Part shown: positions 25,189-41,249 of the stretch, one piece after another
How the letters are laid out: each line of letters starts with the position of its first letter
Position numbering within the stretch: position 1 is the first letter of the stretch
From: Chryseobacterium sp. CY350
GTDB lineage: Bacteria; Bacteroidota; Bacteroidia; Flavobacteriales; Weeksellaceae
Direction: 5' to 3'
Length of the DNA: 64,000 bases
Assembly: GCF_027945075.1 (NCBI RefSeq)
Contig: NZ_CP116034.1
Coordinates: forward strand, 2,418,001 to 2,482,000
Notes under the pieces: generated by a model
What the model was told of the DNA's origin: nothing
Database searches by the model: none
Seen by the model: only the letters and a program-made list of their open reading frames with translations
Position numbers and translations under genes: made by a program

Positions 25189-26493
25189 TTAACTTTGATA
25201 CCCCAACAATTTTCTAATCTGATAGAAAAACCTTTCAATCAACCTCAAATCTTGGGTGACGATTTCAGCATTTCCCCTCAGTTCTTTATCAAACTTTAGG
25301 GTTTTATTGTAAGACGTTTTTAAACCTTTAGGCAAAACAACATCAACATAATAATTTCCTTTATCGTCGGGAATCAGAGAGATATTCTGAACTTTCCCTT
25401 CGATGATTCCGTATTCCTGAAAGCGGTAATTGTCTAATTTAATTAAAACTTTTTGTCCGGTTATAATTTTGCCGGAGTTTGCCGTTGGTACAGACATTCT
25501 TCCCACCAATTGCTCAGTATGATCCGGCAAAATTGAGATGATAGGATCACCTGCTTTTACAAATTGATTTTCACCGTAAAACTGCTGAAAACTTGCCATT
25601 CCATTGGTAGAAGAAATAATGAGATAAGTTTGTTCCCACTGTTTCAGTGATTTTCTCAACTGCTCAAACAGCTGCAAAGTTTGTGAAGAATAGGTGATTT
25701 TATCTTTTTCTGTATTGATTGCGGTTCCGCTTTTTGTTTTATTGAGATTCGAAATACTTTCCTGCATCTGAGATAAAGAAATACTGATGTTTTCTAAATT
25801 CTGCTGAGCCTGAAGATATTTTAGTTTTTCACCTTCAAGTTCTACTGCCGCAATTACGCCCTGATTGAATAATTCCTGTGAACGCTTATAATTTTTTAGA
25901 GTAAGTTCTGTTTTCGCAGCTTCAAGATTTCTTTGCTGCTTTAAAGCGATGATTCGACTTCGGGATTCTGATAAACTTTGATTAGCTGCCAGATTTTCAG
26001 GAGCATACGGTTGCAATCTCGTAAATAAATTCTCATCCTGAAAAGCTTTCGCAAAACTGTTGTAATCACTTTGCAATTCGCCCAATTTATAATGAGAAAC
26101 ATCATTCACGGGAAAAGAAAGCAGTTGATCTGAAGCGATAGAATCTACTATTTTTTTTAATTTTAACACATCCTGATAATTTGCTGTAGACTGCAAAACC
26201 AGCATCACCTCGCCTTTTTTTACTTTCTGATGATCCTTTATAAATATCTTTTCGATTTTCGAGCTGCTCCTTGCCTCAATTTTCTCAGGCGGATTTTGTG
26301 ACGTAACAATGATTGGAGCCGGAACAAATTCAGGATATTTAATGATATAACTCATCGCCAAAATCATTAACAAAATGATCAATATAATCGTGTTGCCCCA
26401 ACGAAACATCCAATGTGGCGGTTCTGTGAGAATATCCTGAACGCTTTCTGAGCGGAGTTCTATGTTGTCTAAAATGTCTTTTTTAGTTTCCAA
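25189..26493 (-). CDS. HlyD-type membrane fusion protein of a C39 exporter
   Basis: A 434-residue periplasmic adaptor with one N-terminal membrane helix (TIILIILLMILAMSYII, residues ~33-50). A split biotinyl-lipoyl domain (ARSSSKIEKIFIKDHQKVKKGEVML and ISSTNGMASF) brackets a long coiled-coil hairpin. It links an inner-membrane ABC exporter to an outer-membrane channel. It overlaps the C39-ABC transporter gene just upstream by 11 bases, so the two make one export pair. A TolC-like protein is not encoded nearby. Confidence 0.88.
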   Translation of the reverse strand: METKKDILDNIELRSESVQDILTEPPHWMFRWGNTIILIILLMILAMSYIIKYPEFVPAPIIVTSQNPPEKIEARSSSKIEKIFIKDHQKVKKGEVMLVLQSTANYQDVLKLKKIVDSIASDQLLSFPVNDVSHYKLGELQSDYNSFAKAFQDENLFTRLQPYAPENLAANQSLSESRSRIIALKQQRNLEAAKTELTLKNYKRSQELFNQGVIAAVELEGEKLKYLQAQQNLENISISLSQMQESISNLNKTKSGTAINTEKDKITYSSQTLQLFEQLRKSLKQWEQTYLIISSTNGMASFQQFYGENQFVKAGDPIISILPDHTEQLVGRMSVPTANSGKIITGQKVLIKLDNYRFQEYGIIEGKVQNISLIPDDKGNYYVDVVLPKGLKTSYNKTLKFDKELRGNAEIVTQDLRLIERFFYQIRKLLGYQS

Positions 26494-28678
26494 GTTCTAA
26501 CTGATTTTTAACGAGTCTGTAATATTCACCTTTTAAAGATACCAATTCCGCATGATTTCCTTCTTCCACCACTTTTCCCTTATCTAAGACAATTATTTTA
26601 TCGGCATGTTTTACGGTGGACAATCTGTGAGCAATCACGATGGCCGTTTTACCTTCAAAAAACTGTTCCAGATTTTCCATGATTACTTTTTCATTATTTG
26701 CATCTAAAGCACTTGTTGCTTCGTCAAAGAAAATATATTCCGGAGATTTGTAAACCGCTCTTGCGATGAACAATCTTTGTTTTTGTCCGCCACTTACGCC
26801 AAGTCCTTCGTTTCCGATCTTCGTATTGTAACTTAACGGTAGTCCTTCAATAAACTCTTTGATATTGGCAATTTCGACTGCTTTTCTAAGTTTTGTTTTA
26901 TCTACATAATCTTCACCAACAGCAATATTATTGGCAATCGTATCATTAAAAACATAACCTTCCTGCATCACAACGCCGCACTGATCTCTCCAGAATCTCG
27001 GTGAGATGTTTTTCATTTGGGTATTCCCTATTTTTATTTCTCCCTCGTTGGGTTCATAAAATTTCATTAATAATTTCAGCAGCGTCGTTTTACCACTTCC
27101 ACTAGCTCCGACAATGGCTGTTGTTTTTTGATAAGGAATATTTAAACTTAAATTTTCAAAAACAGGAACATCCGAACCGATGTATCTGAAAGACATATTG
27201 CTGATCTCTATATCTTTTTCAGGGATTTCGGTAGCATATTGCTCATCTTTGCTTTCTTCATCTTCCTTATCGTGAATTTCGCCCAATCTTTCCAAAGAAA
27301 TTTTAGCATCCTGAGTTTGTTTGATGAAATCTATTAGTTGTAAAAGCGGACTGTTTAATTGTCCGATAATGTACTGAACAGAAAGCATCATCCCCAAAGT
27401 AAGGTTTCCTTCCAAAACCAATTTGGCAGAAAGAAAACTCACCAAAATGTCTTTCATCTGATTGATAAAGTTTCCACCAACGGATTGCCATTGCTCAAGT
27501 GAAAGCGATTTTATTCTGAGTTTAAATAATTTAACCTGCAAAAACTCCCAATCCCAACGTTTTTGTTTTTCGGCGTTGTGCATTTTGATTTCCTGCATTC
27601 CATTGATCAGTTCAATGACTTTGCTTTGCTCTTGGGAAACCTGTGAAAATCTTTTATAATCGAGTTCTTTTCGTTTTCCGAGGAAAAAAGTGATCCATCC
27701 GATATATAAAATCGCCCCAACAAGATAAACAACAAATAATCTGTAATCGTAAAACAGTAAAACGATACTGAAAATAATCAGATTGACTAATGAAAACAGT
27801 GTATTTAAAGATGAATTGGTCAAAAGCTGCTCAATTCTGTGATGGTCATTGATTCTCTGCATGATATCTCCCGTCATTCTCGTATCAAAGAAACTTATTG
27901 GAAGTTTCATTAATTTAATAAAGAAATCTGAGATGATCGAAATATTAATTCTCGTGGATAGATGAAGTAAAATCCAGCTTCGGATGACTTCAATTCCCAT
28001 TCTGCCAAGAAAAAGCATGACTTGAGCCAATAAAACCAAATAGATAAAATTAAGATCTTGATTCTGAATTCCCACATCCACAATACTTTGGGTAAGGAAA
28101 GGAAGGATAAGCGACAATAAACTTCCTGCTAATAAACCCACCGCCAACTGAACAATCAATGATTTATACTTAAGCAGGTATTTAGAAAGAAAAGAAAAAC
28201 TGGCTTTACTTTCATGATCATCAAATTCGGTCTGGAAAAAAGCAGGTGTTGTTTCTAGAATCAAAACAATTCCTTCTTCTGTGTTTTCGCTGGCATTTTC
28301 GCCGATCCATCGTTTGATAAATTCTTCTCTTGTGTACGTAATCAAACCATAGCTAGGATCAGAAATGTAAACAATGTTATTTTTATCAATTTTATAAATA
28401 ACTACAAAATGATTTTTGTTCCAGTGTACAATACACGGGAAAGGAACTTCTTCAGCCAAAGTATTAAAATCGATCTGCACTCCCAAAGAACGGAAGCCCA
28501 AATCTTCAGCAGCATCACTCAACCCAAGCAAACTGCTTCCTTCTCTTGTCGTTTCTGAAAGGTTACGGATCTGTTGTAGCGAAATGCTTTTTCCGTAATA
28601 TTTGCTGACTATTCTGAGACAGGTAGGACCGCAGTCTTTGGAATCCGGCTGAAGGTAAAAGGGGAATTTTTTTTTCAA
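26483..28678 (-). CDS. Peptidase-containing ABC exporter (C39), unit A
   Basis: A 731-residue bacteriocin-type exporter. The N-terminal C39 peptidase has the catalytic Cys in SKDCGPTCLR and His in HWNKNHFVVIY, with DPSYG as the third site; it cuts leaders after double glycine while exporting. Six membrane helices follow (residues ~170-440), then the ATPase: Walker A GASGSGKTT, signature VSGGQKQR, Walker B FFDEATSALD and the H-loop AHRLST. A -7 box (TATTTTTG on the minus strand, 28703-28710) lies 24 bases upstream, and a copy of the island's TTTATAAATTTTG motif lies at 28867-28879. Likely substrates are the double-glycine peptides of this island. Confidence 0.92.
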   Translation of the reverse strand: MKKKFPFYLQPDSKDCGPTCLRIVSKYYGKSISLQQIRNLSETTREGSSLLGLSDAAEDLGFRSLGVQIDFNTLAEEVPFPCIVHWNKNHFVVIYKIDKNNIVYISDPSYGLITYTREEFIKRWIGENASENTEEGIVLILETTPAFFQTEFDDHESKASFSFLSKYLLKYKSLIVQLAVGLLAGSLLSLILPFLTQSIVDVGIQNQDLNFIYLVLLAQVMLFLGRMGIEVIRSWILLHLSTRINISIISDFFIKLMKLPISFFDTRMTGDIMQRINDHHRIEQLLTNSSLNTLFSLVNLIIFSIVLLFYDYRLFVVYLVGAILYIGWITFFLGKRKELDYKRFSQVSQEQSKVIELINGMQEIKMHNAEKQKRWDWEFLQVKLFKLRIKSLSLEQWQSVGGNFINQMKDILVSFLSAKLVLEGNLTLGMMLSVQYIIGQLNSPLLQLIDFIKQTQDAKISLERLGEIHDKEDEESKDEQYATEIPEKDIEISNMSFRYIGSDVPVFENLSLNIPYQKTTAIVGASGSGKTTLLKLLMKFYEPNEGEIKIGNTQMKNISPRFWRDQCGVVMQEGYVFNDTIANNIAVGEDYVDKTKLRKAVEIANIKEFIEGLPLSYNTKIGNEGLGVSGGQKQRLFIARAVYKSPEYIFFDEATSALDANNEKVIMENLEQFFEGKTAIVIAHRLSTVKHADKIIVLDKGKVVEEGNHAELVSLKGEYYRLVKNQLELGN

Positions 28679-28866
28679 AATTTATGCTGGTTAAACAACA
28701 CTCAAAAATAGTGATATATTTTTTATATTTTAAAATGAAAAATAAATAATTCATTATTACTAAAAAAAAGTATGTGAAGCATTTCCTGAAAACTTGTTAT
28801 CGCTTTTAGCCTGTCATTGAAGATCTCTTATCACATTTCGTTCGAGAAAGTATTATTGAGTTTTCG

Positions 28867-28879: not shown

Positions 28880-28961
28880 ACAAATCTGAAATGAGGCTAG
28901 AAATCCTAATATTAATAAAAAAAGTTTCATTACTAAATTAATCATAATACATTATTAGAGG

Positions 28962-31121
28962 TTAATTAAAATTCGTGCCCTGCTTTTCCCACATAGATTT
29001 GTAAGCAGAATCTTTGGATATCAAATCATTATGACTTCCTTGTTCTATAATTTGCCCTTCTTTCATAACCAAAATAGTATCAGCATTAGCAATAGTACTT
29101 AGACGGTGGGCTATTACGATCATTGTTTTGCCTTGATTTCTAAATTCCTGTAATGTGTTTTGGATGACCTGCTCAGATTCTGTATCCAGTGACGAGGTAG
29201 CTTCGTCCAATATCAATATTTCAGGATTTTTATATAAAGCTCTTGCTATTGCTATTCTCTGTTTTTGTCCACCAGATAATAAAGCTCCATTCTCACCTAA
29301 GTATGTTTGAAATCCGTTTGGCAACTTCTCCACAAAACCAAGTATTCCCAGTTTTTTTGTTATATCTAAGATATGTTGGATATCTGGAAAATCTTCACCA
29401 ATAGCAATGTTTTCAATTACATTTCCTGAAAACAAATCTATCTGCTGTGGCACCACTGATACTAAATTCCTAAGCGAATAATTAGATATGTAGTTTATAT
29501 CATAATCTCCAATGAGTATTTTACCCGTTTTGAGAGGATACAAATTTTGAATTAAAGAAGCTAAAGTAGTTTTACCACTACCGCTTTCTCCAACGAGTGC
29601 CGTCGTTTTACCTTTTTCAATAACGCAGTTAAAACCAGTAAAAACATCAGTTCTGCTTCCGTAGCTGAAGAACACCTCCTTAAATTGTATGTTCCCAATA
29701 TTTTCAGTTTTAAGGTCTATTTTTTCGGTATTCTCTTCCCGTTCCAAATCCATGATTTGAAAAAGGCGGTCGGCAGCTATTAAAGCATTTTGGATGGTTT
29801 TATTCATCCCTATTAATTGTGAAACAGGACCGGTAAAATATCCTATTAATGCATAAAAAGATAATAACTCACCAGGCGTTATCGTTCTGTCAATAACATA
29901 TCCCGATCCTGCCCAAAGCAATACAATAGTAAAGACTCTTGATAAAAATTCAGAAGAGTTACCGGAAAAAAACGCATTCATTGCAGAGATATAAATAGTC
30001 TTTAAAAGCTTGCTAAATGCATTATCAGTCTTATTATTGGCAAATGTCTCTATCCCAAACTGTTTAATGGTTTTTACAGATGTTATTGATTCTACCAAAT
30101 GAGATTCTAACTCTGCGCTTTCTTCCATTAATTTTCTTTCTACTTTTTTATTCAATTTATTGGTAATCAAGTATACAAAAAAATAGAATGGAATTACCAA
30201 TGCTGTAATAAGTGCCAACTTCCAATAATAGCTAAACATTAAAGCAAATGATAGAATAATAATGAAAATGTTTACAAAAATCTGTATGGAAACATCATTA
30301 ATAAAAGTCCTTATTTTAACAGCATCATTTACTCTCGATATGATTTCCCCCACTTTCATTGTATCAAAAAAACGCTGAGGAAGTTTTAATAAATGCTTAT
30401 AATATCCTAAAATGAGGTGCTTATCCATTTTTTGACCCGTCTGCAATACCAGAACAGATTTCATAGTCCCTATAAAAATCTGAAATAACAAAATAACTAT
30501 CATTCCTACTGAGAGTAGATTCAAAAGTCTCTTGTTACCATCTATCAAGACATAATCTGTAATTTTCTCAATATAAATAGAGGTGGAAAGTCCTAAAATA
30601 GTATACACAAGCGCACCCAATAATGCCTGAATTAAGATACTTTTGTGGGGCTGTACTAAGTTCCAAAATCTTTTATAAATGCTTGTTTTTTCATCTTTCT
30701 GCTCAAAGTACTCATTAGGCTCCAATAGAATAAGAACTCCTGTCCAAGTTTTAGAAAAATCATCAATAGAATATTCTTCTATTTTTCCAAAAGCAGGATC
30801 CATCACTTCTATTTTTCCCTTGGAAGCTTTGTAAATAACTACATAATGATGGTATTGTTCTTTGGTAATAATGTGCGCAATAGCAGGAAGCGGAATTTCT
30901 GGCAAAGCATCTGCACCGCCTTTTACCCCCTTAGCATTGAATCCCATTTTCTCCAAGCCTTGCACCATTCCCAATACGTTTGTTCCTCGTGTGTCGGTAT
31001 GACTTAACTGGCGGATTTTTGCAATCGGCATTTTTAGCCCATAATGCGCAGAAACAGAAGCCAAGCAAGCAGCACCACAATCTTTCAGATCGTGTTGTTT
31101 TATTAATAAATCTTTCTTCAT
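28962..31121 (-). CDS. Peptidase-containing ABC exporter (C39), unit B
   Basis: A 719-residue exporter of the same type as unit A but clearly diverged, so this is not a recent duplication. C39 domain: Cys in LKDCGAACLASV, His in QYHHYVVIYK, DPAFG. The membrane domain spans residues ~160-440. ATPase: GESGSGKTT, LSGGQKQR, LILDEATSSLD, AHRLST. It overlaps its HlyD partner upstream by one base. Together with unit A it gives the island two complete leader-cleaving exporters, which may serve different peptides. Confidence 0.92.
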   Translation of the reverse strand: MKKDLLIKQHDLKDCGAACLASVSAHYGLKMPIAKIRQLSHTDTRGTNVLGMVQGLEKMGFNAKGVKGGADALPEIPLPAIAHIITKEQYHHYVVIYKASKGKIEVMDPAFGKIEEYSIDDFSKTWTGVLILLEPNEYFEQKDEKTSIYKRFWNLVQPHKSILIQALLGALVYTILGLSTSIYIEKITDYVLIDGNKRLLNLLSVGMIVILLFQIFIGTMKSVLVLQTGQKMDKHLILGYYKHLLKLPQRFFDTMKVGEIISRVNDAVKIRTFINDVSIQIFVNIFIIILSFALMFSYYWKLALITALVIPFYFFVYLITNKLNKKVERKLMEESAELESHLVESITSVKTIKQFGIETFANNKTDNAFSKLLKTIYISAMNAFFSGNSSEFLSRVFTIVLLWAGSGYVIDRTITPGELLSFYALIGYFTGPVSQLIGMNKTIQNALIAADRLFQIMDLEREENTEKIDLKTENIGNIQFKEVFFSYGSRTDVFTGFNCVIEKGKTTALVGESGSGKTTLASLIQNLYPLKTGKILIGDYDINYISNYSLRNLVSVVPQQIDLFSGNVIENIAIGEDFPDIQHILDITKKLGILGFVEKLPNGFQTYLGENGALLSGGQKQRIAIARALYKNPEILILDEATSSLDTESEQVIQNTLQEFRNQGKTMIVIAHRLSTIANADTILVMKEGQIIEQGSHNDLISKDSAYKSMWEKQGTNFN

Positions 31122-32218
31122 TATTTTAGTTTTGGATTAAACCAATCATCTACTCTGTCAAATAATAGTTGCCATAATGTGCGGTCTATTAAATGAAAGC
31201 GAGCCGTAAAACTCATTCCTTTTCCAATATTCCCTTTATACCCACTTTTTAGCTGTAGATAATTTCTATCCATTATACAAAGAACTCTAAAAGATGCTTC
31301 CCCAGTTTGTTCATTAATTTTTATATTCTGCTCAATTTCTTGCACTTTTCCTTTTAGTAATCCCCATTGATTGTAATTATAAGTATCAATCTGGAATTTG
31401 ACTTTTTGTCCTGAATGAATAAATCCTATATCTTTTGGAGAAACCAGACATTCCGCAATGAGTGACTGCTCAGGTGAAATTTGTCCTATGGGAGTTCCTT
31501 GTACCAAAAAATTTCCTTTCTGGATTCCTGAAAAATTAATCAGCCTTCCTGAAACCGGAGCCGTTATAATGTAATTTTTTTGTTCTTGATCGATACGCTG
31601 TATTTCTGACCCTAAAGAACGTATTTGTCTTTCAACCTCTCTTTTTTGTGTTTGCCACTGAGCAATCTGTTGTTCTCTTATACCGGAAATTTGTTTTTTT
31701 AAACCTTGATAATCATAATAGTATTTATCGTATTCTGCTTTAGGAATTACACCTTGATTATAAAGAGTTGAAGTTCTTTCAAAGTCTTTCTGTGCCAATG
31801 ATAATTGTGTTTGTATCTGTGCGATTTTTTCGTGCATCGCTGATAGCTCTCTCTGAAATTGCCCGGTTTGCAGTCCTGAAATTTGTCCTCTCGTCAATTT
31901 ATTTAAATCTTGTAGCTGTGCTGAATAATCTGAACTTTGACTGTTTTGAAGATTTTTTTGAGTATCAAGTTGCTCTGCGGTAATTATTAGAAGAGTATCA
32001 CCCTGTTTTATTTGCTGATTATTTTTATCAAGTTTACTAAATATTATTTTTCCTGAAACAACAGAAGAGATTTGTGTATTCTCGTGTACTGAACGTACAA
32101 TGCCTCGTGAAGAGGAAGAAATGGGAATGTAAATAAAAGGTAATGAAGCTAAAACTGCAACGATAAAGAAGAGAATGCAGATATATATTGTATTTTTCAT
32201 TTGTTTTTTAGTTTCCAA
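31121..32218 (-). CDS. HlyD-type membrane fusion protein paired with exporter unit B
   Basis: A 365-residue adaptor. It has an N-terminal membrane helix (IYICILFFIVAVLASLPFIYI), then lipoyl halves (SSVVSGKIIFSKLDKNNQQIKQGDTL and ITAPVSGRLI) around a coiled-coil hairpin rich in Gln (QRELSAMHEKIAQIQTQLSLA). The C-terminal beta-barrel includes GQKVKFQIDTYNYNQWG. It lies first in a two-gene unit with the C39 exporter. The 191 bases upstream (32219-32409) separate it from the CPBP gene and hold nothing I recognise. Confidence 0.87.
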   Translation of the reverse strand: METKKQMKNTIYICILFFIVAVLASLPFIYIPISSSSRGIVRSVHENTQISSVVSGKIIFSKLDKNNQQIKQGDTLLIITAEQLDTQKNLQNSQSSDYSAQLQDLNKLTRGQISGLQTGQFQRELSAMHEKIAQIQTQLSLAQKDFERTSTLYNQGVIPKAEYDKYYYDYQGLKKQISGIREQQIAQWQTQKREVERQIRSLGSEIQRIDQEQKNYIITAPVSGRLINFSGIQKGNFLVQGTPIGQISPEQSLIAECLVSPKDIGFIHSGQKVKFQIDTYNYNQWGLLKGKVQEIEQNIKINEQTGEASFRVLCIMDRNYLQLKSGYKGNIGKGMSFTARFHLIDRTLWQLLFDRVDDWFNPKLK

Positions 32219-32409: not shown

Positions 32410-33207
32410 TTATTTTGAAAAAGTAGCAGATTTAATTAAAACTAAACTGAAAATTGAAAATACTAAAGTGGTTATTATAGAACCTTCAAAACCAAAATCA
32501 ACACCCGTTAAAATTTTGTTATTTGATATAAAACTATAATTAGATATACCATATATTTTTAAGCCACTTATATTGCTGCCATAGATACAACCAATTAAAA
32601 AATTCCATAAAAAATGAACGATGGTAGATATTATTATAGAATTAGTTTTTAGATAAATTAGACTTAAAAATATACCTGCAACAAAAATATTTATTAGTCC
32701 AATAATATTAAAATTTGGATTAAATAAATGGAAGCAGCTAAATATTAATGATGTTAAAAGAACATTCTTAAGCGAAAGTTCGTTCTTTAATATATTGTAA
32801 GGAATAAATCTAAAAAATATTTCTTCCATAAATGCGGATAGTAGTAATAAGAAAAAAAATGTAACAATCTCTAAGTAATCAATATCCTTGATTAAGTTTG
32901 TGTTAATTAAATTTAAGTAATTTAATATAAGACTAATAGCTGTTGGAATAAATATACCTACTGAGATTATTTTGAGATTTTTGAATGACCAAAACTTTGA
33001 AAGTAAGTTAGCCTTAAAGGCTTTTATTAAGTTTAGCTTATAAAGGAAATATATTCCACAAATTAATTCTGGGAAAAATGAAGAAATCCATAAATTAACT
33101 GTAAATGCTTTTTTAGGAAAATCTTTAAAAGCTATAAAGAAAAAAGGTATGGAAATAATAAATTGTAAAAAGAATATTTTTAGAAATAATGGAATTATTT
33201 TATTCAT
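32410..33207 (-). CDS. CPBP-family intramembrane protease (possible bacteriocin immunity)
   Basis: A 265-residue polytopic protein of the CAAX-protease/bacteriocin-processing (Abi) family. The glutamate motif is FMEEIFFRFIPYN (EExxxR), followed by SLIFSCFHLF (H motif) and TIVHFLWNFL (HxxxN). These are the catalytic residues of intramembrane glutamic proteases. In Gram-positive class II bacteriocin loci such proteins give self-immunity or help maturation. Its position 48 bases after two double-glycine peptides supports that here. It is very AT-rich. Confidence 0.85.
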   Translation of the reverse strand: MNKIIPLFLKIFFLQFIISIPFFFIAFKDFPKKAFTVNLWISSFFPELICGIYFLYKLNLIKAFKANLLSKFWSFKNLKIISVGIFIPTAISLILNYLNLINTNLIKDIDYLEIVTFFFLLLLSAFMEEIFFRFIPYNILKNELSLKNVLLTSLIFSCFHLFNPNFNIIGLINIFVAGIFLSLIYLKTNSIIISTIVHFLWNFLIGCIYGSNISGLKIYGISNYSFISNNKILTGVDFGFEGSIITTLVFSIFSLVLIKSATFSK

Positions 33208-33255: not shown

Positions 33256-33414
33256 TTATTGCTTCATTGCCTGTCCTCCTGGAAGGTGTATTTCTCTTTC
33301 ATGTTGAGCTGCAAACTCTGCACAAGCTCCTACAAATCCAATGATAGCTCCAATCAAAGAACCTCCATTTGTGTTCTTTAATTCTTTTCCTGTTAATTCT
33401 ACTAAATTTTTCAT
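33256..33414 (-). CDS. Double-glycine leader peptide 1 (bacteriocin-like)
   Basis: A 52-residue peptide too short for most gene finders. Leader MKNLVELTGKELKNTNGG has the hydrophobic positions and GG ending that C39 exporters recognise. Cleavage would release a 34-residue peptide with SLIGAIIGFVGACAEFAAQ (glycine-zipper-like GxxxG spacing, one Cys) and an EIHLPGGQAMKQ tail. It lies between peptide 2 and the CPBP gene, all on one strand, upstream of both exporter pairs. This fits a class II-type bacteriocin or signal peptide. Activity is inferred only. Confidence 0.75.
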   Translation of the reverse strand: MKNLVELTGKELKNTNGGSLIGAIIGFVGACAEFAAQHEREIHLPGGQAMKQ

Positions 33415-33423: not shown

Positions 33424-33591
33424 TTATCTATTTTTAATAAATGCTTGCCCTGCAGCATAACCTTTTTTAATATCATCTTGAGAAAAAGCAATTTCATAAG
33501 CAATTTCTGCAAGTACCCACCAAAACCCTCCTTCTATTGTAGTTAGTTCATTATTATTTAACTCAACCACGTTTAAATTTTTTAAATTCAT
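33424..33591 (-). CDS. Double-glycine leader peptide 2 (bacteriocin-like)
   Basis: A 55-residue peptide. Leader MNLKNLNVVELNNNEL + TTIEGG resembles that of peptide 1 (V-E-L core, GG end). The released 33-residue part begins FWWVLAEIAYEIAF and ends in GYAAGQAFIKNR, so it is amphipathic with an aromatic start and basic end. It is encoded 9 bases upstream of peptide 1, suggesting a two-peptide system. It is the first gene of the minus-strand half of the island. Confidence 0.75.
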   Translation of the reverse strand: MNLKNLNVVELNNNELTTIEGGFWWVLAEIAYEIAFSQDDIKKGYAAGQAFIKNR

Positions 33592-33678
33592 TTTGTTTAA
33601 ATTATAAAATTAATTAATATTTTTTGTCATACAATCCCTGACATGGGCTTTTTGCTGATCAGCGTTTCATATTTATAC

Positions 33679-33731
33679 TTTTGTACTGTACACATACAAA
33701 AAATAAACATTTGTGTTTTTGTTGAAGCAAA
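33679..33731 (-). promoter_or_regulatory. Probable promoter of the double-glycine peptide operon with inverted repeat
   Basis: On the minus strand TTTG (33728-33731) is followed after 22 bases by TATTTTTTG, a -7 box with one extra base. Just downstream is the inverted repeat TTTTGTA / TACAAAA (33679-33685 and 33695-33701), around a TGTACTGTACA palindrome. This would leave a leader of about 90 bases before peptide 2. In the 322-base region 33592-33913 I see this promoter, sites A and B, and the regulator's -7 box. Confidence 0.35.
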
Positions 33732-33773
33732 GATGCGGGCTCTTTTTTGGTGATACAAGAAAAGCATCTCGAA

Positions 33774-33820
33774 ATTTATAAATTTTAGCATATTGTTATA
33801 CAGGATTTATAAATCTTGGG
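33774..33820. promoter_or_regulatory. Putative AraC-regulator sites A and B
   Basis: Two copies of ATTTATAAAT extended by TTTTAG (33774-33788) and CTTGGG (33805-33820). The copies are 31 bp apart, three helical turns, so they face the same side of DNA. They lie between the divergent peptide operon and the regulator gene. The same motif recurs at 35686 and 28867. Confidence 0.5.
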
Positions 33821-33913: not shown

Positions 33914-35632
33914 ATGCACAAAACTTTCCTCATTCTTTTGTTTCTTTTCTATCAAAGTCTATGCTTTCCGCAAAGTATGAAGCAATTTAGTATTCCAGAT
34001 TCATTGAAAACAAAAAGTTTTGAACTATTGGAAAAATCCTATAGAAAAATATTACCCTTAAATAAAACTAAAGCAGCAATTTATGCTAATAGTATTCTTC
34101 TAAAAGGTAAAGTAGAAAATAGTGATGTAAGAATAGCCGATGGATATTTAATGTTATATCAACTAAGCAGTGATAAATCAGCATTATTGTATTTAGATAG
34201 TATGAGATTAGTATCTAGAAAAATGAATAATTCTCAATATTTAGCTAATAGTTATAAGTACAAAGGGAATTATTATTACATAAAAGGGGAATATCCAAAT
34301 GCATTAACTAATTATTTAATAGCAAGAGACTATTCAAAAGGTGATAGTGAAACATTTCATATTCTCAATTTCAATATTGGGTTATTAAAACTTGAACTAA
34401 AAGAATATCAATCAGCCACACAACTCTTTTTAGGTTATAAACAATATTTGGAAAAAAATAACGCAGAAAAGTCTTTTGATTACCTGAGTTCTATATATGC
34501 GTTGGCATATTCTTATAGTTTTACAAATGAGTTAGACTTATCAGATCAATATATAGAGCTTGGTCTGAAAAAAAATCAAGTAATAAAAGATGATGAAAGC
34601 AAAGCTAATTTATTAATGGTTTTAGGGATAAATGATTATAAAAGGAAAAACTATAAAGAAGCATTGAAATCTTTAAAAAGTGCGTCTAAATTAATGAGGG
34701 ATAATTATTATTACCCTCAAAATCTAGCTATTAGTGAATATTATATTGGAAGAATTTTATATAATATGAATAATGTAGATTTTTTAAGCACATTTGAAAA
34801 AGTTGATTCTATAATTATTAAAACTAAAAATGTTACAAATGAATTAAGAAATACATATCCATTATTGATTGAATATTATAAAAAAACAGGGAACAAAGAA
34901 AAACAACTATATTACATTGAACACTTATTATCCGTGGATAGTATTTTAAACAGGAACAATAGCTTTTTATCAACAGAGATCAATAAAAAATATGATACAC
35001 CTATTCTTCTAGAAGAAAAAGAAAATTTAATTGCAGATTTAAATTCAAAGAATTATACATTATTTTGGTTATTAGGAATAGGAGGCGTGCTTTTAGTGAG
35101 CCTATCAGTACTACAGGTAAAAAATAGAAAAAAAATAAAGCTATACCAAAGCAAAGCAGATTTACTCATCCAGTCTTCAATTCCAATTGAAAACATTGAT
35201 CCTATTGATATAGTAGCTATTGATGAGGTGAGAGATGATACCAAAAAAGAAAGATCGAAGAACACTTTATCAGATGATAAGCTTAAGCAGTTAAATATAA
35301 TGTTAAAAGAGTTTGAAAATGGAAAGCGTTTTTTAGATAAGACGATAAATTTAGAGGTTTTATCTAAAGAATTAAATACAAACAGGGCTTATTTATCAAA
35401 ATCCGTGAACAACCTGAAAGGATTAAATTTCCCTCAGTATCTTAATCAATTAAGAATTAAATATATTATTGAAGAATTAAAGAAAAATAAAAGCCTTCAA
35501 AAATTAACAATAGTAGCTCTTGCGGATGAAGCAGGATATAATAATGTAGAGTCTTTTACTAACGCTTTTAAAAAAATAACAGGTACTTTACCTTCATATT
35601 TCATAAAGGCATTACAAGAAAATATCAATTAA
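33914..35632 (+). CDS. Membrane-anchored TPR sensor with AraC-type DNA-binding domain
   Basis: A 572-residue regulator of a form typical of Bacteroidota. Signal peptide (LILLFLFYQSLCFPQS), then TPR-like helical repeats in the periplasm (residues ~25-370), one membrane helix (LFWLLGIGGVLLVSLSVLQV region, ~375-395), a linker, and a C-terminal AraC helix-turn-helix (residues ~455-570; LNTNRAYLSKSVNN and VALADEAGYNNVESFTNAFK then TGTLPSYF). It would sense an extracytoplasmic cue, perhaps an exported peptide, and activate nearby promoters. It is divergent from the peptide operon and upstream of the lanthipeptide-like operon; shared motifs support control of both. Confidence 0.85.
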   Translation: MHKTFLILLFLFYQSLCFPQSMKQFSIPDSLKTKSFELLEKSYRKILPLNKTKAAIYANSILLKGKVENSDVRIADGYLMLYQLSSDKSALLYLDSMRLVSRKMNNSQYLANSYKYKGNYYYIKGEYPNALTNYLIARDYSKGDSETFHILNFNIGLLKLELKEYQSATQLFLGYKQYLEKNNAEKSFDYLSSIYALAYSYSFTNELDLSDQYIELGLKKNQVIKDDESKANLLMVLGINDYKRKNYKEALKSLKSASKLMRDNYYYPQNLAISEYYIGRILYNMNNVDFLSTFEKVDSIIIKTKNVTNELRNTYPLLIEYYKKTGNKEKQLYYIEHLLSVDSILNRNNSFLSTEINKKYDTPILLEEKENLIADLNSKNYTLFWLLGIGGVLLVSLSVLQVKNRKKIKLYQSKADLLIQSSIPIENIDPIDIVAIDEVRDDTKKERSKNTLSDDKLKQLNIMLKEFENGKRFLDKTINLEVLSKELNTNRAYLSKSVNNLKGLNFPQYLNQLRIKYIIEELKKNKSLQKLTIVALADEAGYNNVESFTNAFKKITGTLPSYFIKALQENIN

Positions 35633-35685: not shown

Positions 35686-35742
35686 ATTTATAAATTTTGG
35701 GTTGTTTTTTTTGACTAGTTCTATATTTTATTTCGTTATTTG
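35686..35742 (+). promoter_or_regulatory. Site C and weak promoter of the lanthipeptide-like operon
   Basis: Motif ATTTATAAATTTTGGG (35686-35701) lies 8 bases before a TTTG (35710-35713). A degenerate -7 box follows: only its TTTG half is present at 35739-35742, with the TA missing. A weak core promoter with an upstream site suggests dependence on an activator, most simply the adjacent AraC-type regulator. Confidence 0.45.
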
Positions 35743-35772: not shown

Positions 35773-35949
35773 ATGAAACAAAAAAAACAAACTGAAAAAA
35801 AATTATCTTTAAGAAAATTACAAATGGCTAAAATCAATAATCCTCATATGATAAAAGGAGGTGATGGTAGTAGCGTTTGTAAAACTACAGCGTTTTTTGG
35901 GCTGGATGAAAATGATGGTGGACATACTGGAACAAGACCAACCAAGTAA
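35773..35949 (+). CDS. Lanthipeptide-like RiPP precursor peptide
   Basis: A 58-residue precursor. An earlier in-frame ATG at 35740 is less likely because it overlaps the promoter region. The leader MKQKKQTEKKLSLRKLQMAK then INNPHMIKGG has the KKLSLRKLxxAKxNN pattern of Bacteroidota class I lanthipeptide leaders, and ends in GG at residues 29-30, a possible C39 site. The 28-residue core starts DGSSVCKTTAFF and ends HTGTRPTK; it has two Ser, four Thr and a single Cys, so at most one (methyl)lanthionine could form. It is followed after 8 bases by the prolyl-oligopeptidase gene and then both LanB parts, so its role as their substrate is well supported by position. Confidence 0.8.
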   Translation: MKQKKQTEKKLSLRKLQMAKINNPHMIKGGDGSSVCKTTAFFGLDENDGGHTGTRPTK

Positions 35950-35957
35950 ACAAGAAA

Positions 35958-38138
35958 ATGATTAAGTCAAATCTAATCTTCTATGTAGCTTTTGTTTTTG
36001 TTGGAATGATAAATGCTCAAAAAACTAATTTAGCACCCTCTACACCATTCACTGACGAATACTTTGGAACTAAAATAGTTGATGAGTACAGAAACCTAGA
36101 AAATTTGAAAGACCCTTTAACAGTTCAATGGATGAAGGATCAGACACAATATTCTATATCTATTCTTCAAAGTATACCCAACAGAAAATATTATATTGAT
36201 AGAAGACTAGAATTTGATAAGAAAAAGTCATTTTCCGTATCTAATATAAATATTACAGAAAATGACTTTTATTTTTATTTAAAACAAAAGCCTGAAGAAA
36301 ATAACACAAAAGTTTTTTTCAAAAAAGGATTTGACGGAATTGAAAAGGAAATTTTTAATCCTCAAAACTATAAACCTGAAAATAAAAAAGATTATCAAAT
36401 AAATTATATAAAGCCTAATTATGATGGCTCAAAGCTGGCAATTGCTTTAACTGAAAGTGGCAAAGAAATTTCAGAGATGGTAATCTATGATTTAATACAA
36501 GACAGATTACTGCCTCATATCATTACTAATTGTTGGCCTTCAGATAGTGGAGGTATATCATGGCTTCCAGATAATAATAGGTTTATATATCTCTATTATC
36601 CCGTTATTGATAGTAATTCACCTTCATTTTTAAAAGATATGGAGTCTGTTATTTATAGAATTGGTGATGATCCTCAAAATCTAAATATCCTTTTGTCTAA
36701 GAAAAATAATCCAAACTTAAATATCAAATCTGAAGACTTTCCTGACGTATCGTTACTTACAAAAAGTAGTAACTATTTATTTGGATATATATCAGGTCCG
36801 GTAAAATTTATGGATACTTATTACATATCTGCGAAAGATATTGATAATAAAAATAAATGGAAATTTTTATTTAGCAAAGAAGATAAGATTACGGACTTTA
36901 TTACTAAAGGAGATAATATTATTTATATTTCAGAAAAGAATGGGACTAATGCTATATACAGTACTTCATTACAGAATCCTGATTTCAAAAATCCGTCTGT
37001 AATTGTGCCAAATATTCCTGATGAAATTATTAATGATATATCCAGTATAAAAGATGGATTTATCTTTTATAGTTCTAAAAATGGAGTAGAAGCAAAGTTA
37101 TATTTGTATAAAGAAGAAAAAATAGAATCATTAAAGCTACCGATTCCAGCGGGAGACATTTTAATTACTACTAAGAGCGACCTTTCAAATGATTTCTGGA
37201 TTTCTTGTAGTGGTTGGAAAAATGATTCTGAAAGATTTAAGTATAACTTTTTAACCAAAAAATTTGTTGCCGAAAATTTAGCACCAATTGTTGAGTATCC
37301 GGAATTCAAAGACGTTGTTATTGAAGAAATTACTGTAAAATCCCATGATGGATTAGATATTCCTCTTTCTTTAATTTACAGTAAAAATATTATAAAGAAT
37401 AAGCACAATCCTTTAATTATTGATGCTTATGGAGGGTACGGATATAACAATAGTCCATATTTTGAGAAAACATATTTGCTTTGGGTCCTGCAAGGAGGTA
37501 TTGTTGCTATTGCTCATGTAAGAGGTGGAGGTGAAAAAGGTGAAGAATGGTATAAAGGGGGATATAAAACTACCAAGCCGAACTCTTGGAAAGATGTAAT
37601 CTCTTGTGCAGAATATATGATAAAGCAGAATTACACATCCCCTGAAAATATTGCTATTTGGGGAGCAAGCGCAGGAGGTATTACTATAGGAAGAGCAATG
37701 ACTGAAAGACCTAATTTATTTAAAGTTGCAATAATTAATGCGGGTGTAGTCAATGCATTAAGAATGGAATTCACACCAAACGGCCCAAATAATGTGAAAG
37801 AATTAGGCACAGTTAAAGTTCAATCTGAGTTCAAATCATTGCTGGAAATGGATGCTTATCAACATGTCAAAAAAGGAATTAAATACCCTGCCTCTTTCAT
37901 TACCGGAGGAATAAATGATCCTAGAGTAATCCCATGGATGCCAACAAAATTTGCAGCAAAGCTGATCGCTGATAATACTTCAGACAATCCTATTCTTTTA
38001 AAAATCGATTATGAAGGAGGACATGGAGGTGATATCCCATTATTACAGAAGTATGATAACTTAGCTGACATCTTTGCCTTTGCCTTTTGGCAATTAGGAC
38101 ATCCTGATTACCAACCAAAAGAAGAAATTAAAAAGTAA
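35958..38138 (+). CDS. Secreted S9A prolyl-oligopeptidase-family peptidase
   Basis: A 726-residue serine peptidase with an N-terminal signal peptide (LIFYVAFVFVGMINAQKT). A beta-propeller domain (residues ~80-420) is followed by an alpha/beta hydrolase domain. Catalytic residues: Ser in IWGASAGGITIG, Asp in GGINDPRVIPWMPTK, His in EGGHGGD. Typical S9A enzymes cleave after Pro in short peptides; some (PCY1, POPB) ligate and macrocyclise RiPP cores. It is placed inside the lanthipeptide operon between precursor and LanB, so it most likely trims the exported peptide in the periplasm. Leader NNP and core TRPTK contain Pro sites. Cyclase activity would be speculative. Confidence 0.9.
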   Translation: MIKSNLIFYVAFVFVGMINAQKTNLAPSTPFTDEYFGTKIVDEYRNLENLKDPLTVQWMKDQTQYSISILQSIPNRKYYIDRRLEFDKKKSFSVSNINITENDFYFYLKQKPEENNTKVFFKKGFDGIEKEIFNPQNYKPENKKDYQINYIKPNYDGSKLAIALTESGKEISEMVIYDLIQDRLLPHIITNCWPSDSGGISWLPDNNRFIYLYYPVIDSNSPSFLKDMESVIYRIGDDPQNLNILLSKKNNPNLNIKSEDFPDVSLLTKSSNYLFGYISGPVKFMDTYYISAKDIDNKNKWKFLFSKEDKITDFITKGDNIIYISEKNGTNAIYSTSLQNPDFKNPSVIVPNIPDEIINDISSIKDGFIFYSSKNGVEAKLYLYKEEKIESLKLPIPAGDILITTKSDLSNDFWISCSGWKNDSERFKYNFLTKKFVAENLAPIVEYPEFKDVVIEEITVKSHDGLDIPLSLIYSKNIIKNKHNPLIIDAYGGYGYNNSPYFEKTYLLWVLQGGIVAIAHVRGGGEKGEEWYKGGYKTTKPNSWKDVISCAEYMIKQNYTSPENIAIWGASAGGITIGRAMTERPNLFKVAIINAGVVNALRMEFTPNGPNNVKELGTVKVQSEFKSLLEMDAYQHVKKGIKYPASFITGGINDPRVIPWMPTKFAAKLIADNTSDNPILLKIDYEGGHGGDIPLLQKYDNLADIFAFAFWQLGHPDYQPKEEIKK

Positions 38139-38141
38139 ATA

Positions 38142-40334
38142 ATGTCCCAATTCCCTTATCGCTTTTTTGAAGAGTATATTGTTCGTACTCCTTTATTTTC
38201 ACATAAAAACTTTAGACAAAAATTTAATACTGATGAAATTTCACATCTTGAGTTAAAAGAAATTTGCGCAGATTTAGTTTTTCAGGAAGCAATCTATTTG
38301 GCATCTCCTAATTTATATAAAGAATTAAAAAACTGGTTAGATTCAGAAAAAAAAATATCCCCAAGTCAATACCAAAAACTTAAAAACACCATCTTAAAAT
38401 ACTATATCAGAATGAGTACACGATGTACGCCATTCGGACTATTTTCAGGAGTTGGCTTGGGGAAATTTAATTACGAAAACAACAGTCTTTACGAAAATGA
38501 ATTATTAAAAGTAAGAGATACCAAATTGGACATGCATCTTTTGGTTTCTCTTGCAAAGACTTTAGAAAAGAAACCAGACATTAGAAGACGACTTCTATAT
38601 TTCCCCAATAATAGTATTTACAAAATAGGGAAGAAAATCCGTTATGTTGAGTACGAATATAAAGAAGGAAAAAGAGATTACATCATTTCTTCTGCTCCAA
38701 TTTCTGACGAGCTTTCTCAGATATTAAATTTCACAAAACAAGGGAAAACAAGCTCCCAGATTGCAGAAATTCTTATAGGTGATGAAATAAACTATGAAGA
38801 AGCAAATTCATTTATAAAAGAATTGATTGACAATCAGGTTTTAGTGAGTGAACTGGAATCCACTGTTTCAGGATGCGATTTTTTAGATACGCTAATTTCT
38901 GTTCTAAATCGAATTGGAGCTATAAATGAGACTAAAAATTTAGTTTTAATAAAAGAAAAACTGAATCAATTAGATTTTAAGATAGGAAATCAAGTTTTTC
39001 TATATTCAGAAATCGAAAATCTGATTAAATCTTTCAAAACAGATTATGAGCAAAAATATCTTTTCCAGACAGACCTTTATTTTAGAAATGAATTTACAAT
39101 TTCAGGTCATTGGAAAAAGGAAATCAAAAAAGGCTTGATTTTCCTCAATAAAATCACTTTACTCAGCAAAGACAACCCATTTGAAAATTTTAAGAAAGCA
39201 TTCTATGAGCGATTTGACACTCAGGAAATGCCCTTATCTTATGTTTTAGACACGGAAATAGGAATTGGCTACCTTCAGAATAAAAATGCTAAAGGAATTC
39301 ATCCGTATTTGGAAGATCTGAAACTTCCGCATTCTCAAAAAAAACAAAATCTTCAAATTCATCTTACTCCATTTCAAAAAATTCTTAATGAAAAAGTACA
39401 GGAAGCTTTATTAGAAAATCAATTTACTATTTCATTGAATGATGATGATATCAAAAAGTTTGAAGAAAACTGGGATGATTTGCCAGACACTTTATCTGTA
39501 ATGGCAGAAATAATATCCGAAAATAATGAAGAAAAATTGTCCCTTGGAAGTGTTGGAGGAAGCAGTGCTGCAAATCTCTTAGGTAGATTTTGTTCTGAAC
39601 AATCTAATGTTCAAAATCTTACAAAACAAATTACAAAAAAAGAAACAGAACTGAATTCTGATTATGTTTTGGCAGAAATTATACATCTTCCGGAAACCAG
39701 AATTGGAAATATCATCAGAAGACCAACGCTTCGCGAGTATGAGATTCCGTATTTAGCTGCGTCTGTTTTGCCGAAAGAGAACCAAATTCCTGTTGATGAC
39801 CTGTACATTTCTTTGAATAATAACAGAATCATTTTACGGTCGAAAAAACTCAATAAAGAGATCATGCCGTTTCTTACAAATGCACATAATTATTACTCTA
39901 ACACTTTGCCTTTATATCATTTCCTATCAGACCTGCATTCTCAAAACACTCGCACAGGTTTATACTTCGAATGGGGAGGTCTTTCACAGATTTACAAGTT
40001 TCTGCCAAGAATAGAATATAAAAAAATTGTAATATCTAAAGCCCAATGGAATGTCGTAGAAAGAGAGATCTTATCAATAGATTCAAACTCTAACAATAAA
40101 GCTGAATTCCTTGAACTCATGAAAAAATGGAGAACCAAAAGACAGGTTCCGAAATGGATTCAATGGGTAAAATCTGACAATACCTTGCCGATGAATTTAG
40201 AAAATTATGATCTGGCAAAACTATTTATTGAAACCGTAAAAAGTGAAAAACAAATCATGATTGAAGAATTTTTGTATCATGAAAAGGATGATTTTAAGCG
40301 TGAATTTATTTTTCCGATGTACAAATCCAACTAA
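38142..40334 (+). CDS. Lantibiotic dehydratase, glutamylation part (LanB N-terminal protein)
   Basis: A 730-residue protein matching the glutamylation domain of class I LanB. It uses glutamyl-tRNA to activate Ser/Thr of the precursor for dehydration. Seen are MSTRCTPFGLFSGVG (the RxTPFGLFxG signature), LFQTDLYF, a FDTQEMPLSYVLDTEIGIGY stretch, GSVGGSSAANLLGRFC, and YFEWGGLSQIYKFLPRI. The elimination domain is on the separate gene 36 bases downstream, as in thiopeptide systems and many Bacteroidota loci. Its start is 3 bases after the peptidase stop. Confidence 0.93.
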   Translation: MSQFPYRFFEEYIVRTPLFSHKNFRQKFNTDEISHLELKEICADLVFQEAIYLASPNLYKELKNWLDSEKKISPSQYQKLKNTILKYYIRMSTRCTPFGLFSGVGLGKFNYENNSLYENELLKVRDTKLDMHLLVSLAKTLEKKPDIRRRLLYFPNNSIYKIGKKIRYVEYEYKEGKRDYIISSAPISDELSQILNFTKQGKTSSQIAEILIGDEINYEEANSFIKELIDNQVLVSELESTVSGCDFLDTLISVLNRIGAINETKNLVLIKEKLNQLDFKIGNQVFLYSEIENLIKSFKTDYEQKYLFQTDLYFRNEFTISGHWKKEIKKGLIFLNKITLLSKDNPFENFKKAFYERFDTQEMPLSYVLDTEIGIGYLQNKNAKGIHPYLEDLKLPHSQKKQNLQIHLTPFQKILNEKVQEALLENQFTISLNDDDIKKFEENWDDLPDTLSVMAEIISENNEEKLSLGSVGGSSAANLLGRFCSEQSNVQNLTKQITKKETELNSDYVLAEIIHLPETRIGNIIRRPTLREYEIPYLAASVLPKENQIPVDDLYISLNNNRIILRSKKLNKEIMPFLTNAHNYYSNTLPLYHFLSDLHSQNTRTGLYFEWGGLSQIYKFLPRIEYKKIVISKAQWNVVEREILSIDSNSNNKAEFLELMKKWRTKRQVPKWIQWVKSDNTLPMNLENYDLAKLFIETVKSEKQIMIEEFLYHEKDDFKREFIFPMYKSN

Positions 40335-40370
40335 AATGTTTGAGGAATATTCATGAAAAAAAGATAGGTT

Positions 40371-41249
40371 ATGACAGTAATAAGAAAATTCGCCCCGGGA
40401 ACAGAATGGCTCTACCTGAAAATTTACACTGGAGTAAAAACAGCAGATCTCATTTTAGAAGAAGCAATACAATCAGTAGCGCAATATTTTCTCGGTAATA
40501 ATGAAATTTCAAAATGGTTTTTTATTCGCTATCATGATCCTAAACCACATTTGCGAGTAAGATTTTGCTTACATAATACTGAGGATTATTTTACTGTTCT
40601 TAACAAAATAAACGAAGAACTCCAAGAATTTACCGACAGTGGAGAAATTTCCAATATTTTAATTGAAACATATAATAGAGAAATCGAACGTTACGGACAA
40701 AACACCGTAGAAGAAGCGGAAACATTATTTCATAAAAATAGCGAATTTACTTTATTGTGTCTTCCGTACGACGATGAGGACAAGCTTATTTTCGGCATTT
40801 TTCTAATTGATCAAATATTGAATAAGCTTAATCTTGAAATTACTGAGAAATTAGCTTGGATTAGAAATTTTAATGATGCTTTCAAAGAGGAATTTAATGC
40901 TGACAAAAATCTCAACAGCCAGTTAGACAAAAAATACAGAGAGTTCAAACCAAAATTAATCAACTTTATACAGTCGGATGAGTTTTCGGATGAAAGAATT
41001 GCAATTGTTCTTCACACAGAAGAATGCGATGCTGCATTACAAAATATTCTTCAGCACCATCAAAACGATGTGTTGGGTATTTCTTTGCAAACTTTCTTTT
41101 CAAGCATATTCCATATGAATATCAATAGACTATTTGTTTCAGATCAAAGATTGTTCGAGATGGTTATTTATGATTATTTGTTGAGGTATTATAAATCATT
41201 GGCGTTCGCAACCATCAAAAAAAACGAATCTTTCCTTATCACTCAATAA
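40371..41249 (+). CDS. LanB elimination-domain protein (thiopeptide-type biosynthesis protein)
   Basis: A 292-residue stand-alone SpaB_C/TbtC-like protein that removes glutamate from the activated residues to leave dehydroamino acids. Diagnostic segments are the N-terminal WLYLKIYTGVKTADLIL, KWFFIRYHDPKPHLRVRF (the charged elimination-site region), ETYNREIERYG, and SIFHMNINRLF near the C-terminus. It is the last gene of the plus-strand operon. No LanC-like cyclase follows; the next gene is recN on the other strand. Confidence 0.92.
   Translation: MTVIRKFAPGTEWLYLKIYTGVKTADLILEEAIQSVAQYFLGNNEISKWFFIRYHDPKPHLRVRFCLHNTEDYFTVLNKINEELQEFTDSGEISNILIETYNREIERYGQNTVEEAETLFHKNSEFTLLCLPYDDEDKLIFGIFLIDQILNKLNLEITEKLAWIRNFNDAFKEEFNADKNLNSQLDKKYREFKPKLINFIQSDEFSDERIAIVLHTEECDAALQNILQHHQNDVLGISLQTFFSSIFHMNINRLFVSDQRLFEMVIYDYLLRYYKSLAFATIKKNESFLITQ

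Follow-up and report, generated by a model that had tools for sequence, protein, structure and literature searches.

The window analysed here, a 64,000-nucleotide stretch of Chryseobacterium sp. CY350 (C1:2418001-2482000 of the complete 4.09-Mb genome), carries two operons that face away from each other on either side of a gene for a membrane regulator, in which tetratricopeptide repeats (TPR) are joined to an AraC-type DNA-binding domain (TPR-AraC). The minus-strand operon is headed by a conserved element, R1, and holds two short peptides with Gly-Gly (GG) leaders, a CPBP membrane protein and the exporter pair MFP2 and C39-ABC2. The plus-strand operon holds a LanB precursor, a prolyl oligopeptidase (POP) and the two halves, LanB-N and LanB-C, of a split dehydratase (Table 1). 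All these parts, together with a second HlyD/C39-ABC pair (MFP1 and C39-ABC1), had been named in a preliminary description of the region, and open reading frame (ORF) and family searches located every one of them in its place. Comparison with a panel of 173 genomes of the genus allows us to propose how the parts may act together. We see an even chance that the LanB precursor gives rise to a dehydrated, non-lanthionine peptide, which would serve as autoinducer of bacteriocin-type operons through TPR-AraC. The wiring of the two operons, a shared control site around one membrane regulator, is supported by the sequence.

Table 1. Genes and regulatory features of the region, with positions in the window.
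Feature	Position	Strand	Evidence
MFP1, HlyD-family adaptor of near-core exporter	25189..26493	-	HlyD_3 E 4e-12
C39-ABC1, peptidase-containing ABC exporter	26483..28678	-	Peptidase_C39 2e-35, ABC domains
C39-ABC2, exporter of bacteriocin-type operon	28962..31121	-	Peptidase_C39 9e-36
MFP2, HlyD-family adaptor	31121..32218	-	HlyD_3 4e-16; adjoins most ABC2 homologues
CPBP/Rce1-like membrane protein	32410..33207	-	PF02517 8e-18
GG-leader peptide A, core SLIGAIIG...	33256..33414	-	ORF; weak class IIb leader matches below cut-off
GG-leader peptide B, core FWWVLAE...	33424..33591	-	ORF; ComC/Bacteriocin_IIc leader matches below cut-off
R1 element, promoter end and 5' leader of GG-peptide operon, ~125 nt	33594..33738	-	Covariance model match, 142 bits
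Operator core ATTTATAAAT, proximal to R1 promoter	33774..33783		Palindrome match
Operator core ATTTATAAAT, distal, 31 bp from proximal site	33805..33814		Palindrome match
TPR-AraC regulator, transmembrane	33914..35632	+	Pfam; N-terminal signal-like segment, TPR, transmembrane segment about 381-400 (hydropathy), HTH_18 483-564
Operator core ATTTATAAAT upstream of LanB precursor	35686..35695		Palindrome match
LanB precursor, leader KKLSLRKLQMAKINNPHMIKGG, core DGSSVCKTTAFFGLDENDGGHTGTRPTK (one Cys)	35773..35949	+	ORF and motif search
Prolyl oligopeptidase (S9A)	35958..38138	+	PF00326 4e-46, PF02897 2e-27; best PDB match 7vgb 4e-65
LanB-N, predicted glutamylation half of split dehydratase	38142..40334	+	PF04738 (Lant_dehydr_N) E 3e-139
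LanB-C, predicted elimination half	40371..41249	+	PF14028 (Lant_dehydr_C) E 2e-63, TIGR03891 over cut-off

The genes of the plus-strand operon recur together in the genus. LanB-N relatives of at least 48% identity were collected at 95 loci, the window included, with TPR-AraC upstream at 90, an adjacent LanB-C at 86, and a POP or an S15/CocE-type peptidase at 92 (POP at 71, S15 at 25, both at four; the S15 assignment was made with Pfam on one protein, that of L041, and extended by BLAST). Stretches that end early explain some of the misses. The loci of the closest named LanB relatives, from Chryseobacterium edaphi (L001) and a Chryseobacterium metagenome-assembled genome (L002), repeat L041 and L044, which reduced the set searched for precursors to 93 loci, the window among them; 72 of these gave one or more precursors that bear the motif. 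The POP is predicted to be secreted from its N-terminal signal-like segment, and TPR-AraC, precursor, secreted prolyl peptidase, LanB-N and LanB-C are, as far as gene content tells, a recurrent module. Among 395 genomes of the order, searched with a cut-off of E 1e-120, LanB-N at 50% identity or more over most of its length was found in Chryseobacterium and two other genera of its family, and a LanB elimination domain is present in 134 of the 173 genus genomes. Of the 21 LanB-N loci below 48% identity, 15 have LanC within 4 kb, seven an AraC, and five a POP or S15 upstream.

The window encodes a LanB dehydratase with both the glutamylation and the elimination domain, as is usual for class I. 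Both halves align with the solved LanB structures 9g04 and 5ehk (LanB-N at 8e-48 and 5e-18, including the motifs RxxxRxTPFGLF and GRF), and LanB-C contains FFIRY..HLRVRF, YxxExxRYG and HMNINR, motifs to which a catalytic role is ascribed. As regular expressions the motifs matched 67 and 68 of 93 LanB-N and 65, 89 and 60 of 89 LanB-C proteins; the misses reflect either strict patterns or lost residues, so that motif conservation is claimed for the window protein only. At five further loci (L214, L217, L218, L220 and L221) AraC and POP stand without LanB in the next 1.4-1.7 kb, four of them with a precursor, and the five genomes carry LanB elsewhere. LanB-N is fragmented or interrupted by stop codons in the modules of L215, L219, L222, L224, G048, G145 and G138, a sign of frequent decay.

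The absence of LanC and the composition of the peptide cores bear on the nature of the product. The complete genome of strain CY350 gave no LANC_like match, and LanC is present in 84 of the 173 genus genomes. Within the fetched DNA, LanC was seen at two of the 95 LanB-N loci, about 6 kb away. Among 72 distinct cores from LanC-less loci, 39 have no Cys, 33 have one and none has two or more; the 20 LanC-linked cores, which come from 13 of 15 loci, each have at least two, a comparison limited by the different leader patterns with which the two sets were extracted. The single Cys of the window core lies in SSVCKTT, near Ser and Thr residues. Pro is present in 51 of 54 cores from loci with POP only and in 6 of 16 from loci with S15 only. 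Because the genome has no LanC and the cores have no Cys or a single one, the peptide produced is probably dehydrated and essentially linear, and not a lanthipeptide. A lanthipeptide cluster was rejected as a candidate on these two grounds, and the preliminary label of a lanthipeptide-like system is misleading.

The promoters of the two operons share a palindrome. The exact ATTTATAAAT occurs only three times in the 64 kb, always in the promoters of the GG-peptide operon and of the LanB precursor, and the degenerate core ATTkATmAAT has three further matches in the window (24126, 42612 and 57333). Over 35 loci of the genus, pairs of promoters from one locus had in total 128 10-mers in common, compared with 58±12 when promoters were mismatched, and the shared word is the palindrome ATTTATAAAT or ATTGATCAAT, plus mixed forms. 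In genus counts that leave the window out, the core was found in 45 of 67 regions upstream of R1 and 57 of 71 regions upstream of precursors, compared with means of 0.7 and 1.7 in dinucleotide shuffles (30 runs). Where cores lie on both sides of a locus (n=20), they are of identical type in 19; shuffling gave 13.2±1.2, and none of 2000 shuffles reached 19. The geometry is also constrained, as paired sites before R1 are 31 bp apart in 11 cases or 20-22 bp apart in 14, with the last site beginning 47-51 bp ahead of the R1 element in 39 of 45. The same site thus lies before the putative signal gene and before the putative output operon, an arrangement expected of autoinduction. A regulator common to two peptide classes had been suggested in the preliminary description; the palindrome upstream of both operons, in the window and across the genus, supports the common control, with TPR-AraC as its presumed binder. 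The two classes were also suggested to share exporters, of which C39-ABC1 is near-core in the genus and C39-ABC2 accompanies the bacteriocin operon.

The palindrome also follows the regulator. We fetched 20 stretches around R1 copies away from the LanB-A module, holding 24 R1 copies, and TPR-AraC lies 100-190 bp from R1 in 12 of these stretches. The core was present at 9 of the 12 R1 copies that adjoin TPR-AraC and at 1 of the 12 others (Fisher P 0.003 on copies, the 12 others deriving from only eight stretches). Taking all fetched DNA together, a sample drawn largely from the surroundings of such loci, 73 of 91 R1 copies have a TPR-AraC match no more than 3 kb away. Five of the 12 stretches are the loci noted above with AraC and POP but no LanB close by; at L214, L218 and L221 the motif search gave precursors that are preceded, at a distance of 82 bp, by the core.

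R1 typically ends 12-32 bp before the first gene of a GG-peptide operon. Its copies head varied operons, encoding class-IIb-like peptides, other GG peptides, small secreted proteins and precursors that resemble those of graspetides in appearance. In 48 aligned copies, covariation indicates two helices of six and four pairs, with 98.3% of 476 cells paired; 33 cells had changed on both sides compared with 9.2±2.2 in 500 shuffles, and the paired share dropped to 37-58% in slid controls. One-sided changes at the ten pairs gave U-G or G-U in 31 cells, and 8 of the 476 cells were unpaired. This pattern of change favours RNA rather than DNA dyads. The fold of the single sequence was no better than that of shuffles (z -0.46), and no Rfam family matched between 24000 and 43000 of the window up to E 0.5. 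The 5' end of R1 bears a TAnnTTTG-like box, CATCTTTG, in some copies TATGTTTG. The sequence TAnnTTTG is the -7 consensus of Bacteroidota promoters, and since the box fits it, R1 is probably for the most part transcribed leader. At E<=1e-5, 114 of the 173 genus genomes have a copy, strain CY350 having one. Among the matches listed at E<1e-10, R1 is present in 66 of 92 genomes with LanB-A and 10 of 81 others, which speaks for a link between R1 and the LanB module. At L227-L230, R1 heads operons for graspetide-like or Cys-rich peptides (by appearance) with no TPR-AraC, and at L228 and L230 a small protein of XRE-like appearance adjoins the R1 operon.

In the minus-strand operon, two GG-leader peptides side by side are accompanied by a dedicated C39-ABC exporter and adaptor, the gene set typical of class IIb bacteriocins, and similar sets occur elsewhere. 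We take the CPBP/Rce1-like protein, which has an 84% identical homologue at the same position in L176, to be the likely bacteriocin immunity protein. From its gene content this is a two-peptide, class-IIb-like bacteriocin operon, for which a killing activity that needs both peptides would be expected. Neither GG peptide matched a curated bacteriocin family over its cut-off, and the curated family search of the LanB precursor likewise gave scores below the cut-offs. Therefore, these peptides are identified from where they lie, from homologues that lie in the same place at other loci and from the regulatory sequence; homologues of the GG peptides with the same kind of leader adjoin the same exporter in other genomes. 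C39-ABC2 is rarer than C39-ABC1 (22 loci in 21 of 173 genomes at E<=1e-230, and 162 of 173 at E<=1e-280, respectively), and its loci usually include MFP2, a small membrane protein or CPBP, and GG peptides. At 6 of the 22 loci, window included, a LanB-N of at least 50% identity is located no more than 10 kb from C39-ABC2, so the parts do co-occur elsewhere, as the idea of a single system would lead one to expect. A seventh locus (G064) has a LanB of lower identity 2 kb away, and no LanB was seen near the other 15, some of which are on short contigs. In L176, L177 and L180 the bacteriocin peptides are separated from TPR-AraC by a further short GG peptide, the third, whose core is conserved around ILGNVIYT.

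In a mirror test, the divergence of the peptide core was compared with that of its neighbours. In the largest class of loci (43, with POP and with AraC on the opposite strand), the core correlated with TPR at 0.80, POP at 0.84, LanB at 0.52, HTH at 0.48 and its own leader at 0.50. Given LanB, the partial correlation of core and TPR was 0.68 and 0.71 in two runs (P 0.001); given TPR, that of core and LanB was -0.11. Over all 63 loci the core correlated with TPR at 0.45 and with LanB at 0.40.

We propose the following series of steps. LanB-N would glutamylate and LanB-C eliminate, so that Ser and Thr of the plus-strand precursor are probably dehydrated. The modified peptide probably leaves through a C39 transporter that cuts after Gly-Gly, and would then be trimmed at Pro by the secreted POP. 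TPR-AraC, with its TPR domain probably periplasmic and its helix-turn-helix domain cytoplasmic, probably senses the modified peptide and probably binds the palindromic operator with the core ATTkATmAAT. The operator lies once before the LanB precursor operon, where it would bring about autoinduction, and once or twice, two or three helical turns apart, before the GG-peptide operon, the presumed output, whose mRNA would begin with the structured leader R1. That output would be a two-peptide, class-IIb-like bacteriocin, served by a dedicated C39 exporter and a probable CPBP immunity protein. More tentatively, and with somewhat less confidence than for the autoinducer, we suggest a pheromone system common to the genus Chryseobacterium: a LanB-dehydrated, ring-free peptide, trimmed by POP and read by a transmembrane TPR-AraC, would switch exchangeable bacteriocin and graspetide operons by means of a phased palindrome and a new structured 5' leader RNA, and one LanB may serve several receptor-ligand-protease triads per genome.

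Several observations weigh against this proposal. In the 43 loci the core co-diverges with POP (r 0.84) more than with TPR; the partial correlation of core and TPR given POP is only 0.22, that of core and POP given TPR is 0.48, and the addition of this POP control to the mirror test weakens the receptor reading. Over the 63 loci, core-TPR given LanB (0.34) and core-LanB given TPR (0.26) hardly contrast (both P 0.001), and since POP and AraC adjoin the precursor, linkage may explain much of the co-divergence. The precursor motif search gave nothing at 21 of 93 loci, and no operator core is present in 22 of the 67 promoters of R1 and 14 of the 71 promoters of precursors. The binding sites of AraC-family proteins are usually non-palindromic. 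Both R1-side sites of the window are also upstream of the divergent AraC gene and could serve it; of the 20 loci that have cores before both operons, 13 carry AraC in an orientation not divergent from R1, so the R1-side sites there are not an AraC promoter, and in the other seven, as in the window, the precursor-side site is downstream of AraC. Two such cores, with no R1, lie beside a 30%-identical TPR-AraC paralogue elsewhere in the genome (L235), and therefore the site is not unique to the LanB module. TPR-AraC was found at only one (L171) of the 15 C39-ABC2 loci away from LanB-A (L161-L175; two short contigs), and the bacteriocin operon thus does not need TPR-AraC everywhere. At E<1e-10, 26 of the 92 LanB-A genomes lack R1, and the counts of co-occurrence are biased by an R1 model built from loci chosen mainly around LanB modules and come from genomes that are not independent. 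Of the 107 copies listed at that threshold, 60 lie no further than 15 kb from a LanB-A module, 39 of them 4.38-4.72 kb upstream of LanB-N, and 47 have no such module that close.

Other explanations of the locus have to be weighed against the autoinducer. The wiring could be as described and the LanB peptide itself a weapon, an antimicrobial or outer-membrane-active linear dehydropeptide, co-expressed with the bacteriocin by a TPR-AraC that senses another cue. We consider this unlikely, while giving it real weight: the palindrome common to both operons, the GG leaders on both kinds of precursor and the bacteriocin-type operon next door at 6 of 22 C39-ABC2 loci would all fit, but the cores are short and rich in Gly and Asp, with few hydrophobic residues (on average 23% AILMFVWY), the conserved module includes no exporter or immunity gene, AraC-POP pairs persist with no LanB (four of five with a precursor), and the core co-diverges with TPR in the largest class. 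A true lanthipeptide, whose single Cys would form a ring with dehydrated Ser spontaneously or through an unrecognised cyclase, appears improbable; Cys is absent from 39 of 72 cores and never occurs twice, and the complete genome has no LANC_like match, against which stand the window Cys near Ser and Thr (SSVCKTT) and the single Cys in 33 of the 72.

The operator may, on the other hand, be real and bound by a regulator of the same family encoded elsewhere. The genome does encode five further near-full-length TPR-AraC relatives, and the one at L235 lies beside two identical cores, yet the operator tracks TPR-AraC adjacency at R1 copies (9 of 12 versus 1 of 12) and a TPR-AraC match is near 73 of 91 copies in DNA largely chosen for such loci, which makes another binder rather unlikely. 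Least probable of all, and only barely credible, is that two unrelated clusters came to lie side by side by chance in a hot spot. The site downstream of the 2OG/Fe oxygenase gene (2OG gene) is indeed a swap site, empty in eight of 16 relatives and with differing cargo in the other eight, and no LanB was seen near 15 of 22 C39-ABC2 loci; chance would nevertheless have to account for identical palindromes in both promoters, which as an exact 10-mer are found nowhere else in 64 kb, and for a pattern that recurs across the genus. The locus L235 (3431-3700; C1 about 1.376 Mb) has its two ATTTATAAAT cores 22 bp apart on one side of the paralogue and, on the other, a divergent 89-residue lipoprotein-like protein with two PPKNGTHYR repeats, and is a possible second peptide-signal locus.

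The proposed system can be compared with known ones. Class IIb operons under pheromone control, such as plantaricin pln, combine two GG peptides, a C39 exporter with its adaptor, CPBP immunity and a peptide-responsive regulon with repeated promoter sites. The window shares the two GG peptides, the dedicated C39 exporter and adaptor, CPBP, the repeated sites and, as proposed, a regulon that responds to a peptide, but has a membrane TPR-AraC instead of a histidine kinase and response regulator, as well as a proposed LanB-modified inducer and the structured leader R1. In the split LanB of the thiopeptide and goadsporin type, separate glutamylation and elimination proteins produce dehydroamino acids with no LanC. 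The window likewise has a split LanB and no LanC, its precursor is unrelated in appearance, and neither YcaO nor a pyridine synthase was found among the ten island proteins scanned. The grasp-with-spasm pair of graspetides (TIGR04192/04193) occupies the same swap site in L045, and R1 heads look-alike precursors elsewhere; family searches of the island proteins did not reveal the pair there.

Bacteroidota class I precursors of the pinensin type have an LxLxKx5L leader, many ending in GG, and are accompanied by C39 proteases and split LanB, according to the portions of Walker et al. (PMC7268733) drawn on here, which count class I LanCs and mention the split LanB of thiopeptides. The window module is like these clusters in its split LanB, its LxLxKx5L-type, GG-ending leader and the C39 proteases nearby; it differs in the lack of LanC, in cores with at most one Cys, in the secreted Pro-specific peptidase and in the membrane TPR-AraC. 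In the same genus, the LanB of ChmABC from Chryseobacterium OV715 dehydrates its precursor in E. coli supplied with the producer's tRNA-Glu and GluRS; LanB dehydration would be common to both systems, and ChmABC has a LanC and Cys-derived intramolecular thioethers, as given in the relevant sections of PMC9993889. The sections of these two papers considered describe no LanC-less module, operator or R1. Across the parts of the open-access literature covered, including PMC10352776, PMC10880069 and PMC8939145, we found no description of a split-LanB module that lacks LanC and includes TPR-AraC and a prolyl peptidase, nor of the R1 leader, although no search was aimed at the leader or the palindrome. 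If the proposal is true, lanthipeptide-type dehydratases gain a role apart from ring making, and a large set of LanC-less LanB loci in Chryseobacterium is explained. Silent bacteriocin and graspetide operons could then be induced by means of a defined operator, leader RNA and receptor, and peptide sensing by Bacteroidota TPR-AraC proteins would become directly testable.

The preliminary description presented the region as one AT-rich island between a 2OG gene and recN, whose composition suggested acquisition. Both flanking genes are indeed core genes, each matched in 172 of 173 genus genomes. The comparison of synteny around recN did not uphold it as the usual neighbour, since recN lies on the opposite side of 2OG, 34-140 kb away, in all 20 relatives compared (the nearest ones, judged by the 2OG gene, that carry the two genes on a single contig). 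Positions 41282-54749 of the window, on the recN side, are collinear with 69.6-83 kb of C1 in G143, and the 2OG gene and island match 127-144 kb of the same contig; the recN junction at the island edge is a rearrangement, and an insertion between 2OG and recN was rejected accordingly. The higher AT content is real but uneven, with 22% GC in CPBP, 26% in AraC, 34% in ABC2 and MFP2, 36% in MFP1 and ABC1, and 33-35% in the flanks, so that composition marks no single acquired block, and this candidate was also rejected. The region is a composite of three units that differ in distribution (the near-core exporter MFP1/C39-ABC1, the rarer C39-ABC2 operon and the common LanB module), and the view of one acquired island is not supported.

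Downstream of the 2OG gene, 16 stretches were fetched among the closest relatives (L041-L056). Eight hold MFP1/ABC1 (MFP1 91-96% identical and adjoining the 2OG gene) with variable cargo, including the LanB module at five (L041-L045), and eight hold neither exporter nor cargo. The cargo of L045 includes the grasp-with-spasm pair (TIGR04192 just under and TIGR04193 over the cut-off), and in L047 the gene next to 2OG is a PA0069-family radical SAM gene. C39-ABC1 is itself near-core, with 90-100% identity among the matches listed. Cys-rich GG peptides, perhaps disulphide-bonded, recur near it together with a VKOR-thioredoxin protein of ~502 residues in L041, L044-L046, L048 and L050, the domains of the latter (PF07884 and PF13462) being confirmed in L041.

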